From positions 407,780-439,905 of the forward strand of contig NZ_UEXK01000004.1 in assembly GCF_900491935.1 (NCBI RefSeq): a stretch of DNA of 32,126 bases, written 5' to 3'. This document shows, in pieces, positions 9,587 through 29,667 of this stretch. The notes beneath the pieces are model-generated. The model was not told where the DNA came from. It did no database searches and saw only the letters and a program-made list of their open reading frames with translations. The first letter of the stretch is position 1. Every line of letters starts with the position of its first letter. Source of the DNA: Klenkia terrae. Its GTDB lineage: Bacteria > Actinomycetota > Actinomycetes > Mycobacteriales > Geodermatophilaceae. The translations under genes and the position numbers were made by a program.

Positions 9587-9609
9587 GCCTCCCGCCACCG
9601 GGCGCGGCA

Positions 9610-9670
9610 GGCATGGGAGCCCATGCACCCACCTCCAGACACCGTCCCCGGGTGCATGGGCTCCCATGCC
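9610..9670. repeat. Perfect 21-bp inverted repeat with nested palindromes
   Basis: Arms 9610-9630 and 9650-9670 are exact reverse complements across a 19-base loop. Each arm holds its own smaller palindrome: GCATGGG-AG-CCCATGC at 9611-9626, and its complement in the right arm. It can therefore fold as one long hairpin or two short ones. It lies between the convergent permease gene and nadA, so a two-way terminator role is possible, though no T-run follows. It resembles a REP/BIME-type repeat. Confidence 0.85.
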
Positions 9671-9689
9671 GGGGTGGGTCGGTGCGTGA

Positions 9690-18651: not shown

Positions 18652-21600
18652 TCAGTCCACCAGCGCATCGGCGGCGTAGGCCGCCCAGAGCACCGCGTAG
18701 GGGCCCTCGACCCCGATCAGCTCGTCGTGCGGACCGGCCTGCACCACGCGGCCGTGGTCGAGCACCACCACCCGGTCCGCCCGGGCGGCGGTGGTCAGCC
18801 GGTGGGCCACCACGACGGTGGTCCGCCGCCCGGCGACGGCGTCGGCCGCCCGGTTGACCGCGGCCTCCGACGCCAGGTCCAGGGACGCGGTCGCCTCGTC
18901 GAGCAGCAGCACGTCGGGGTCCACCAGCTCGGCCCGGGCGAGGGCCAGCAGCTGGCGCTGGCCGGCCGACAGCGACCGGCCGCGCTCGCCCACCCGGGTG
19001 CGGTAGCCCTCGGGCAGCGCCGCGACCATCTCGTGCGCGCCCACGGCCCGGGCCGCGCGCTCGACCTCGAGGTCGGAGGCACCGGGTCGGCCGTAGGCGA
19101 TCGCGTCGCGCACCGTGCCGTCGAACAGGTGCGCCTCCTGCGGCACGACCCCGAGCCGCGCCCGGTAGGCGGCCAGGTCCAGCCCCCGCAGGTCGTGGCC
19201 GTCGACGCGCACCGCGCCACCGGTCGGGTCGTAGAACCGGGCGATCAGCTTCACCACCGTGGACTTGCCGGCGCCGGTCTCCCCCACCAGCGCCACGGTC
19301 TCGCCGGGGGCGATGCGCAGGTCGACCTCGCGCAGCGCCGGCGTGGACGCGCCGCGGTAGGCGAACGTGACACCGTCGAGCACCACCTCCCCGCGCAGCT
19401 GGCCGACCGGCTGCGGGTCGGTCGCCGGCGGCGTCGAGGTCGGGGTCTGCAGCAGGTCGCGCAGCCGGCGCAGGCCCACCGCGGCCTGCTGGTAGCTGTC
19501 GAAGACCTGGGACAGGGACTGGACCGGGGAGAAGAACGTGCCCACGTAGAGCAGGAAGGCGACCAGCACGCCGGCGGTGATCGTGCCGGTGGTCAGCCGG
19601 GCGGCACCGACCACCAGCACGGCCGCGACGGCGAGCTCGGAGAGGAACTCGACGAACGGGAAGTAGGTGGCGATGTAGCGCTGGGCCCGCAGCCGGACGT
19701 CCCGGTAGGCGGTGGCCTTCTCCCGGAAGACCTCCAGCGAGCGCTCGGTGCGGACGGCGGCCTGGGTGACCCGCACGCCGGCGACGTCCTCCTGCAGCCG
19801 GGCGTTGACCGCGCTGACCCGCTCCCGGGCCTCGGTGTAGGCCGGCACCGAGCGCCGCCGGAACCACCAGGTGGCCACGGCCAGAACCGGCAGGAAGGCC
19901 ACCATCACCAGCGCGAGCTCGACGTCGAGCAGGGTCAGCGCGACCAGCACGCCGACCAGGGTGAGCAGGCTGACCACGGCCGTGGTGAGCCCGGTCTGCA
20001 GGAACGCCGACAACGCGTCGACGTCGGTGGTCATCCGGGTCATGATCCGGCCGCCGAGCTCGCGCTCGTAGTAGTCCAGCCCCAGCCGCTGCAGCTGGGC
20101 GAAGGTCTTGACCCGCAGCGTGTAGAGCAGCCGCTCGCCGGTGCTCCCGGTCAGCCGGGTGGACCCGATGGTGACCGCCCAGTCGACGAGGACCACCAGC
20201 AGCGCCAGCCCGCTGATCGCCATCAGCACCGCGGTGGACCCGGCCGACACCCCGCGGTCGATGCCGCTGCGGACCAGCGCGGGCACCGCGATCTGGGCGG
20301 CCGCGTCGGCCGCGGTGAGCAGCAGGGCCAGCGCCAGCACCCAGCGGAAGGGGCGCAGCAGCCCGGCCAGGGTGAACCCGGGGTCGGCGGCCCGGGCGCG
20401 CTCCTCGGGCACCCGCGGGTCGTCGTCCGACGGCGGCAGGGCAGCGACCAACGCCCGCAGCTTGGGCGTGGGCGCCGCGTCGGCGGTGGCGGACCCGCGG
20501 CCGCCGATCGCGGTGGACACCCCGCGCAGCGGCTGGTCCTCGGTCTCGGCGGTGGCCACGACCGGCCACGCGGCCGGGTCGGTCCGCTGCCCCGACCAGG
20601 TCTCCTCCGCGGGCACCGGCAGGCCGTCGGCGGCGGGCTCGGTGATGCCAGAGACCAGCAGCCGGAACTCCGCGCTGCGCTCGGTGAGCTCGTCCACGGT
20701 GCCCACGTCGACCACCCGGCCGGCGTGCAGCACGGCCACCCGGTCGGCCAGGGCGAGGGTGGAGGCCCGGTGGGCGACCAGCAGCGTGGTGCGGTCGGCC
20801 CGGCCGTCCTCGCGCAGGCCCTGCTGGATGCGGGCCTCGACGGTGGCGTCGACGGCCGAGGTGGCGTCGTCGAGCACCAGCACGCGGGGGTCGGTGAGCA
20901 GCGCCCGGGCCAGGGCGACCCGCTGGCGCTGGCCACCGGACAGGGTCAGGCCCTGCTCGCCGACCACGGTGCCGTAGCCCTCGGGCAGGTCGGCGATGAA
21001 GCCGTCGGCCTGCGCGGTGCGCGCGGCGGCCGCGACCTCGGCGTCGGTGGCGTCGGGCCGGCCGAAGGCGATGTTCGCCCGCACGGTGTCGGAGAACAGG
21101 AAGCTGTCCTCGAAAACCACGCCCAGCGCGCCGCGCAGCTGGTCGGTGTCCAGCTCCCGGACGTCGGTGCCGCCGATCCGGACGGCGCCGGACCCCACGT
21201 CGTAGAACCGGGGCAGCAGGCCGACCACCGCGGACTTGCCCGAGCCCGCGGTGCCCACCAGCGCCAGGGTCTCCCCCGGCGCGACGGACAGCGAGACGCC
21301 CTGCAGCGCCGGGGCCCCGCCGGCGAAGGCGAAGGTGACGTCGTCCAGCTCGACGGACAGCGGGCCGGCGGGCACCGGCGTGCTGCCCGACCGGAGCACC
21401 GGCTCGGTGTCGACGATCTCCAGCACCCGCTCGACGCCGGCGCGGGCCTGCTGCCCGATGACCAGCACCGCGGCGAGCTGGCGGACCGGGGAGACCAGGG
21501 CGGCCAGGTAGGTGGCGAAGGCCAGGAAGGTGCCCAGCGTGATGCTGCCCTGCAGGGCCAGCCAGCCACCGAGGGCGAGCACACCGACCTGGCCCAGCGC

Positions 21601-28412: not shown

Positions 28413-28433
28413 GGCTTGGATCAGCTGGGTTCA
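28413..28433 (+). repeat. Left 21-bp terminal inverted repeat
   Basis: Exact inverted match to 29647-29667. It begins 7 bp after the aceE stop codon. Confidence 0.85.
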
Positions 28434-28442
28434 GCAGAGTTC

Positions 28443-28474
28443 GTCCTGGCTCACCGACGCCGGTGAGCCAGGAC
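28443..28474. repeat. Left 32-bp hairpin of the element
   Basis: GTCCTGGCTCACCGAC faces GCCGGTGAGCCAGGAC, a 16-bp stem with one mismatch and no loop; flanking AGAGT and ACTCT extend the symmetry. It differs from the right-hand copy at one base. It may also terminate aceE transcription. Confidence 0.85.
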
Positions 28475-28497
28475 GGACTCTTGCGTTCCGGGCCCGA

Positions 28498-28525
28498 TGA
28501 TCCACAGGCCGCGGCCCCATCCACA
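28498..28525 (+). promoter_or_regulatory. Two TCCACAG repeats (DnaA-box-like) upstream of the element gene
   Basis: TGATCCACA (28498-28506) and CCATCCACA (28517-28525) occur 19 bp apart in the leader of the element gene. They match the DnaA box TTATCCACA at 8 and 7 of 9 positions. They could be DnaA sites or operators for the gene's own winged-helix domain. Neither role is shown by the sequence. Confidence 0.3.
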
Positions 28526-28575
28526 GATCCGTCGCGGTCCTCCCCCCGGGGCCGGGCACAGGCCACAGTCGGCCC

Positions 28576-29649
28576 GTGGATCCCCTGCTCACCGCTGCCA
28601 TGGCCCGGCACGGCGACGTCTTCGCGACAGCGGACGCCCGCGCCGCCGGCCACGACCGGCACGCGATCGCGGCCGAGGTGCGGACCGGCGCCTGGCACCC
28701 CGTGCGCTACGGCGTCTACACCGACCACGACACCTGGTGGGCCTACGCCGCCAAGGGCGAGACGCACCACCTCGAGGCCGCCGCGGTCGTGCTCCGCCTC
28801 GGCCGCACGGGGTCGGTGCTGAGCCACTCCTCGGCCGCCCGGTTGCACGGGCTCGTGCTCCCGGCAGACGTGTCCACCGAGGTCGAGCTCACCGATGCCG
28901 AGCAGTTCCGCCGCGGCCGCGGCTACCGCGTCCGCCGGGCCTCACTGCCGCCGGAGGACGTCACCACCATCGGCGGGCTACCGGTGACCACCCTCGCCCG
29001 CACCCTGGCCGACGTCGGTCGGGAGTGGGATGTCGTGGACACGGTCGTCGCCGTGGACGACGTCCTGGCCGACGGTCGGTTGACCCCCGCCGACCTGACG
29101 GCGACGGCGCTGCGCCACCGGCACTGGCCCCGGGCCGGGCGGATGGCGCGCGCCTTCGGCTTGGCCCGGGTGGGCGCGCACTCCCCGCACGAGACCCGCA
29201 CGCGACTGGCCTTCGTCGCGGCCGGGCTGCCGGAGCCGGTGCTGCAGGTCGCGGTCTACCGGGGACGGCGACTGGTCGGCGTGCTGGACATGCTGTGGGT
29301 CGAGCCCGCCGCCTTCGCCGAGGGCGACGGCAGGGTCAAGGTCAGCGAGCCGTGGAACGGGCGTACGCCCGCCGAGGCGGTGTGGGCGGAGAAGTGCCGG
29401 CACGACGACCTCGTGGACCTCGACCTGCGCGGGGTGCGGGTCAAGCCGGCGGACCTGTTCGACCCGTTCCCGGCCAAGATCGCCCGACTGCGGCACCTCA
29501 TCGCCAACCCGCCGCCGGGACCCCGTCGGTACCGGGTCGAGCAGCGCAACGGCGGGCTCCGGCTCCGGCCCCGGGTCGGCGGGACCGCCGAGGGCACCAG
29601 CGTGCGTCCTGGCTCACCGGCGCCGGTGAGCCAGGACGCACGGTCGTGA
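28576..29649 (+). CDS. AbiEi-like winged-helix protein with a DUF559/Vsr-like C-terminal domain
   Basis: A 357-residue protein. The N-terminal region (about 5-50: HGDVFATADARAAGHDRHAIAAEVRTGAWHPVRYGVY) is the winged-helix domain of AbiEi-type antitoxins. A middle part has VLSHSSAARLHGL and GLPVTTLARTLADV, usual in actinobacterial AbiEi homologues. The C-terminal part (about 200-300) resembles DUF559/Vsr nucleases: SPHETRTRL (Glu206), VGVLDMLW (Asp238), FAEGDGRVK (Glu249, Asp251, Lys255), a candidate PD-(D/E)XK site. No AbiEii toxin gene is adjacent. The last 16 residues or so are encoded by the right hairpin. GTG 28576 lacks a ribosome site; CACAGT six bases upstream could be a weak leaderless -10. 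DNA binding is likely; nuclease activity is a hypothesis. Confidence 0.72.
   Translation: MDPLLTAAMARHGDVFATADARAAGHDRHAIAAEVRTGAWHPVRYGVYTDHDTWWAYAAKGETHHLEAAAVVLRLGRTGSVLSHSSAARLHGLVLPADVSTEVELTDAEQFRRGRGYRVRRASLPPEDVTTIGGLPVTTLARTLADVGREWDVVDTVVAVDDVLADGRLTPADLTATALRHRHWPRAGRMARAFGLARVGAHSPHETRTRLAFVAAGLPEPVLQVAVYRGRRLVGVLDMLWVEPAAFAEGDGRVKVSEPWNGRTPAEAVWAEKCRHDDLVDLDLRGVRVKPADLFDPFPAKIARLRHLIANPPPGPRRYRVEQRNGGLRLRPRVGGTAEGTSVRPGSPAPVSQDARS
29601..29642. repeat. Right hairpin of the element (perfect 42-bp palindrome)
   Basis: Positions 29601-29621 and 29622-29642 are perfect reverse complements with no loop, containing the same 32-bp core as the left hairpin (29606-29637). It overlaps the 3' end of the element gene, so it is both coding and structural. 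It could also stop transcription of that gene and of the convergent M20 gene. Confidence 0.85.
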
Positions 29650-29667
29650 ACCCAGCTGATCCAAGCC
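29647..29667 (-). repeat. Right 21-bp terminal inverted repeat
   Basis: Exact reverse complement of 28413-28433. It begins at the stop codon of the element gene (TGA 29647-29649) and ends 11 bp before the M20 gene stop. Confidence 0.85.

Follow-up and report, generated by a model that had tools for sequence, protein, structure and literature searches.

An AbiEi-nuclease gene between matched inverted hairpins in Klenkia terrae, a candidate enzyme gene of an extragenic palindromic repeat family

Genes of REP-associated tyrosine transposases (RAYTs), the enzymes of repetitive extragenic palindromic (REP) sequences, are described in a 2013 survey as flanked by GTAG repeats or other terminal inverted repeats (TIRs), with the resulting REPtrons being repeat-specific (PMC3733652). 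According to a second source, RAYTs occur as single copies, are passed on vertically and have not been seen on plasmids (PMC8049555). A further group, the CGTC REPs, is presented without a known transposase; its members have an unpaired CGTC tag and a stem of 8-9 bp and occur mostly in alpha-proteobacteria (PMC3733652). The present analysis concerns a stretch of 32,126 nucleotides from Klenkia terrae (contig NZ_UEXK01000004.1, positions 407,780 to 439,905), called here the window, in which a single gene with modelled AbiEi-type and Vsr-like domains is enclosed by two inverted hairpin ends. This gene is probably the dedicated enzyme gene of an extragenic palindromic repeat family.

Set beside these descriptions, the window system works like REP/RAYT and is not a member of it. 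As in the REP/REPIN-RAYT arrangements (REPtrons and TIRtrons), an enzyme gene lies between inverted palindromic repeats, further copies of these repeats are scattered through intergenic DNA, mostly 3' of coding regions, and several families occur in one genome, each with its repeat-specific gene (PMC3733652). As with RAYTs, the gene is kept vertically (PMC8049555), and 72,556 plasmid and 50,697 phage records contain nothing that matches the window protein. The differences lie in the enzyme, which is a Y1 HUH tyrosine transposase there and a protein with predicted AbiEi-type and Vsr-like domains here, and in the ends of the window unit (28413-28475 and 29605-29667), where no GTAG is seen when they are read by eye.

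The two ends are inverted copies of one composite, which consists of a 21-bp tag, an 8-bp gap and a 34-bp palindrome. The left outer tag, GGCTTGGATCAGCTGGGTTCA, occupies 28413-28433 on the plus strand, and the identical right outer tag lies inverted at 29647-29667 on the minus strand. The inner palindromes (28442-28475 on the left, located from the sequence and by a palindrome search of the genome itself, and 29605-29638 on the right) read CGTCCTGGCTCACCG, then A or G, then CGCCGGTGAGCCAGGACG, so that the left and right copies differ by one base. The original prediction had placed two inverted composite ends around one gene at these positions, with identical tags and palindromes one base apart, and the sequence bears this out; its 21-bp tag also stands, and its count of 32 bp for the palindrome and nine bases for the gap is corrected to 34 and 8. 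With up to three mismatches allowed, the tag occurs at 19 places in the 4.8-Mb K. terrae genome, against 0 for a reversed-pattern control, and the inner palindrome at 17 distinct places, again against 0; these 17 comprise the two window ends and 15 places elsewhere in the genome. The hairpin ends of the window are thus beyond chance.

The enclosed gene (28576-29649, plus strand) encodes a protein of 357 amino acids, supported by its open reading frame, a PADLOC assignment and its fold. The reading frame is genuine, as congeners have the same one at the same place (9/9 Klenkia genomes). Its stop codon, TGA, supplies the initial three bases of the right tag, and gene and right hairpin therefore overlap at the gene's 3' end. 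The last residues of the protein (29604-29649, stop codon included) are encoded by hairpin sequence, and residues 338-357 of the model have a predicted local distance difference test score (pLDDT) below 50. Comparison of the structure model with known folds places the AbiEi-type domain at residues 1-198 and the Vsr/homing-endonuclease-like domain at residues 201-314, with the Vsr fold present in this C-terminal domain. PADLOC assigns the protein to AbiEi (4.4e-23), and no Pfam or NCBIfam family matches it up to E = 1; Pfam AbiEi_4 recognises 53 of 62 related proteins, though not this one. A profile of the 62 proteins found no match among the sequences of solved structures, and the domains are placed by fold comparison alone. 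Across the 62 proteins, D238, D251 and G252 are invariant, and E206, K255, E272 and K273 are conserved at 90% or more; together these residues may form a putative active site. Genes of this AbiEi-Vsr type, presently labelled orphan antitoxins, look like a DNA-binding protein fused to a nuclease.

Matched ends are not confined to the window gene. A protein search yields six further homologues in the K. terrae genome and a DUF559 search four more, which gives 11 genes, and all 11 AbiEi/DUF559 genes are enclosed by matched inverted hairpin ends, the palindrome being distinct for each. Ends were scored by aligning the 5' flank locally with the reverse-complemented 3' flank and taking the best alignment, with a cut of 20 and a stricter one of 25, and 336 pairs of flanking windows shifted along the same loci served as controls. 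The weakest K. terrae unit, L272, scores 20.5, within reach of these controls (maximum 21.5). In a set of 98 loci (107 rows less 7 duplicates and 2 untestable), matched ends reach a score of at least 20 at 75 related loci, compared with 3 of the 336 shifted pairs, and a score of at least 25 at 63, compared with none of the shifted pairs. The nine Klenkia genomes contribute 35 examined loci out of 56 matches, a frameshifted gene in two pieces being counted once; ends are found at 34 of these, the sole exception being a frameshifted gene, and at 41 of the 63 loci outside these genomes. Left and right flanks cross-paired between loci scored in 48 of 1307 cases in an 88-row set, where the top scores include near relatives and repeated loci. 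Individual scores deserve some care, as that of G039_L115 rests on a C-rich low-complexity match and the ends of L042 were detected once the flank window was widened. Additionally, three AbiEi-nuclease genes appear to be split by frameshifts (L041, G004 C9:90053-91028 and G018 C3:25070-26085), and the latter two score below 20 for matched ends. In Actinomycetes, AbiEi-nuclease genes usually have matched inverted hairpin ends.

A class-wide comparison, based on the 30 best matches of a Pfam AbiEi_4 search of 60 genomes rather than on a random draw, addressed the form of gene with which the ends go. Twenty-six of the 30 loci were testable, the other four having too little flank; genes were classed by length alone, as long at 285 amino acids or more from the match start and as short at 188-237 amino acids. 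Ends scoring at least 20 surround 10 of the 19 long genes (one of them from K. terrae itself), 0 of the 7 short genes and 0 of 30 NUDIX genes, whose highest score is 19. The ends therefore go with the long form, on small numbers and not in every member. Similarity between the ends of different units was also set against protein identity for unit pairs with non-homologous flanks. End scores of at least 25 occur in 0/213 pairs at 30-35% identity, in 1/472, 7/417, 6/167 and 9/83 in the successive bins above 35%, in 13/70 at 55-60% and in 0/9 at 60-70%. Because most pairs do not match, this rise is not used as an argument for specificity.

The same repeats also stand alone: 15 solo copies of the window's repeat family lie elsewhere in the K. 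terrae genome. Most have the layout tag-palindrome-tag, span about 92 bp and can form one long hairpin, so the window gene is in effect enclosed by a split solo element (tag-palindrome, gene, palindrome-tag). By a simple coding call, 9 of the 15 sites lie between convergent genes, 5 between tandem and 1 between divergent ones. Among solos with a callable neighbouring stop codon, 9 of 11 begin 0-17 bp past the stop on the left, and 11 of 12 finish 2-16 bp short of the one on the right. Solos are known for 8 of the 11 K. terrae families, namely that of the window and seven others, with extra copies outside the unit arms for L037 (7), L038 (6), L039 (7), L272 (1), L273 (2), L274 (1) and L276 (1); for the ten units other than the window's, these counts are lower bounds, drawn from the 40 of 242 first-look candidates that were scored. 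In a set of 55 solos, standard pairing is seen at 84.2% of mirrored positions, compared with 26-43% when the alignment is slid by 1-3, and 187 compensatory cells compare with 46-72 when slid. The unslid count is favoured by the way the set was made, since 40 of the 55 were gathered by similarity to one element and then centred on the best palindrome.

Solos of this kind allow the contribution of homing to be weighed. In this account, the nuclease cuts alleles that lack the unit, which is then copied by recombination, and the unit would be a homing gene with hairpin ends, not a spreader of repeats. The Vsr/homing-endonuclease-like fold of the C-terminal domain is compatible with such an origin. 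Gene-less solos at unrelated places are not produced by allelic homing alone, and we consider this explanation unlikely. A second account regards the ends as operators for autoregulation of the AbiEi type, with no part in spread. AbiEi antitoxins do bind to inverted repeats in the promoter from which they are expressed, and the N-terminal domain of the window protein has the AbiEi fold. One of the two ends, however, is at the gene's 3' end, where it includes the stop codon, the solos are mostly at the 3' ends of other genes, and the hairpin ends that accompany the window gene are absent from the short AbiEi genes, which sets it apart from AbiEi antitoxins. Operators are, therefore, a very unlikely explanation of the repeats.

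It is also conceivable that the repeats are miniature inverted-repeat transposable elements (MITEs) or REPs moved by a RAYT or an insertion sequence, with the gene as a passenger. The outer tags do resemble terminal inverted repeats, and gene-less solos exist. No Y1_Tnp domain, however, was found in any of the nine Klenkia genomes (one of them 73% complete) by a search that was positive in 5 of 14 control genomes, other transposase classes not having been searched for, and eleven sets of ends in one genome each enclose an AbiEi/DUF559 gene. Mobilisation by a RAYT is rejected on the lack of Y1_Tnp in these nine genomes, and the passenger account as a whole appears most improbable. The recurrence of solos, the usual presence of ends around AbiEi-nuclease genes and the lack of Y1 enzymes together give good support to the original prediction of a REP-like association of hairpins with another enzyme class.

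The solos differ from species to species. Eight solo sites could be placed in up to eight congeners, 57 places in all; one of these sites, s1717, was uninterpretable and left unused. At s1401, a family-A solo gives 110 and 112 bp between the stops in G000 and G003, a solo of the L037 family gives 132 bp in G007, and no element is present in G004, G001 and G002, where the stops are 22, -4 and -4 bp apart (-4 denoting overlapping stops); the two convergent neighbour genes are the same in all six genomes, as judged by eye. In G005, the element at this site resembles the L276 family, scoring 35 against 16 for the highest of 500 shuffles, and has another right-hand gene, and in G006 and G008 there is no element and the neighbour genes are others. 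Several different families occupy s1896 in different species. At s3100, a family-A solo is found in G000, G003, G004 and G007 and another family in G001 and G002. Moreover, an unrelated terminator-like hairpin occupies the s3100 junction in G005 and G006 (L263, L264). At one and the same gene junction, a solo is thus found in some species and lacking in others.

Such junctions bear on a further account, in which the hairpins are chiefly bidirectional transcription terminators and the AbiEi-nuclease gene merely lies between two of them. The closeness of the solos to stop codons, the nine convergent sites among the 15, the strength of the predicted hairpins and the replacement of the s3100 element by an unrelated hairpin all fit termination. 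Terminators, however, need not match in sequence, and the left and right ends do, while differing from gene to gene; NUDIX genes and short AbiEi genes have no such pairs; a single sequence family is repeated at 15 places; and an element can be missing from a junction altogether. As the chief explanation, termination is decidedly unlikely, and it may be a side effect of the hairpins rather than an alternative.

The gene unit itself behaves differently from the short solos. The gene adjoins aceE downstream in all nine Klenkia genomes and also in G010, a genome from a different genus. In the aceE 3' regions of G009, G011, G013 and G014 there is no unit, and the DNA following aceE looks different by eye, so these four offer no clean empty sites. 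The original prediction had suggested that the unit might be mobile and that regions downstream of aceE in relatives could reveal an empty site; presence and absence at the same site in relatives hold for the short solos, and mobility of the gene unit, which is fixed after aceE, is not supported. Conservation of the unit at one place is also the outcome under which the original prediction itself regarded mobility as unlikely. The idea that the aceE unit itself moves was dropped on account of its fixed position in the genus Klenkia. What changes at this locus is the palindrome, which differs between species while the two ends of one unit stay alike. Within aceE units, the left/right score has a median of 58.5 (n=10), and the same-side score between species has a median of 36 (n=90); 73 of the 90 between-species scores are below both units' own left/right score. 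The aceE ends show a pattern of concerted evolution.

A dedicated enzyme gene could account for these patterns in the following way. The AbiEi domain would bind the palindromes, and the Vsr-like nuclease would nick or cut them as hairpin, cruciform or duplex. Repair or replication, starting from a hairpin intermediate, might then copy the repeat into new junctions, and diverged older copies would be overwritten through recombination, that is, by conversion. Allelic homing may contribute to homogenisation, and the enzyme gene would be kept by descent, like RAYTs. More broadly, we lean towards the view that the AbiEi-Vsr fusions of Actinomycetes serve as dedicated enzymes for a second class of REP-like replicators that evolved independently. 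Each nuclease would recognise its own palindrome, spread it into gene junctions and convert older copies, so that many repeat families could coexist in one genome, as do the eight with solos in K. terrae.

Several observations weigh against assigning this role to the gene and its relatives. The action of the nuclease on hairpins is something we infer. Matched ends are missing at 23 of the 98 loci (22 of 63 outside Klenkia and 1 of 35 within) and, in the class-wide set, around 9 of the 19 long AbiEi genes, only 7 of the 19 having them at a score of at least 25. No solo was found for the K. terrae families L040, L041 and L275 among the 40 scored of 242 candidates, and the placement of solos at gene ends could reflect tolerance, not targeting. 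The presence or absence of solos fits gain or loss alike, and at s1401 no clear target duplication is seen by eye, with boundaries coarser than one base. The match between solos and the units of their own genome, compared by plain counts, is also mixed. Eighteen of 50 newly fetched orthologous places score at least 30 with one or other Klenkia unit; in 11 of these 18 the top-scoring unit, ties included, comes from the same genome. Among solos fetched by similarity to one element, the own-genome unit is best in 22 of 40 (G006 11/11, G003 8/9, G002 2/4, G007 1/5, G001 0/3, G004 0/8), and among the K. terrae solos in 7 of 15, the other 8 fitting a K. marina unit slightly better. Some genomes thus show a clear match and others none. 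Finally, at aceE, the left end of the unit is in 8 of 10 species closer to that of the nearest relative than to its own right end, because close pairs (G001/G002 and G000/G003) still share ends.

Other known systems share single features with the window unit. Like the AbiE type IV toxin-antitoxin systems, the window protein includes an AbiEi winged-helix domain; unlike AbiEi of those systems, it has an extra C-terminal nuclease domain, and no AbiEii nucleotidyltransferase toxin is found among the four neighbouring proteins scanned, which are pyruvate dehydrogenase E1, peptidase M20, a DUF3052 protein and a protein with an ArsR-type helix-turn-helix (HTH). In contrast to Vsr and the homing endonuclease I-Bth0305I, the Vsr-like domain is fused to an AbiEi-type domain, and the gene is solitary, enclosed by hairpins downstream of aceE. 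The CGTC REPs resemble the window's repeats in being palindromic and extragenic, and the inner palindrome here starts with CGTC; unlike their unpaired tag, CGTC lies here within a 15-bp stem. C. crescentus is named among the species whose CGTC repeats have no known enzyme (PMC3733652). The Caulobacter vibrioides genome used as a control contains DUF559. In the open-access library searched, with most subscription papers and all bioRxiv preprints lying outside it, no description of such hairpin/AbiEi-nuclease units was found.

Two further places in the window resemble hairpin ends of other families. A solo of the family that flanks the K. terrae gene at L273 lies at 9608-9674, just past a stop codon, with no strand assigned. 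At 19791-19815, a 25-base stretch with a 96% match to the hairpin end of L042 is found within a long minus-strand reading frame, and it may be a chance match or an intragenic repeat.

REP repeats have so far been tied to one enzyme class, the Y1 HUH RAYTs. If the reading proposed here is true, a second enzyme class would have its own palindromes, which would mean that this arrangement had several origins. Many genes that at present carry an antitoxin label would thereby gain a function, and a source of the short hairpins found at actinobacterial gene ends would be explained.
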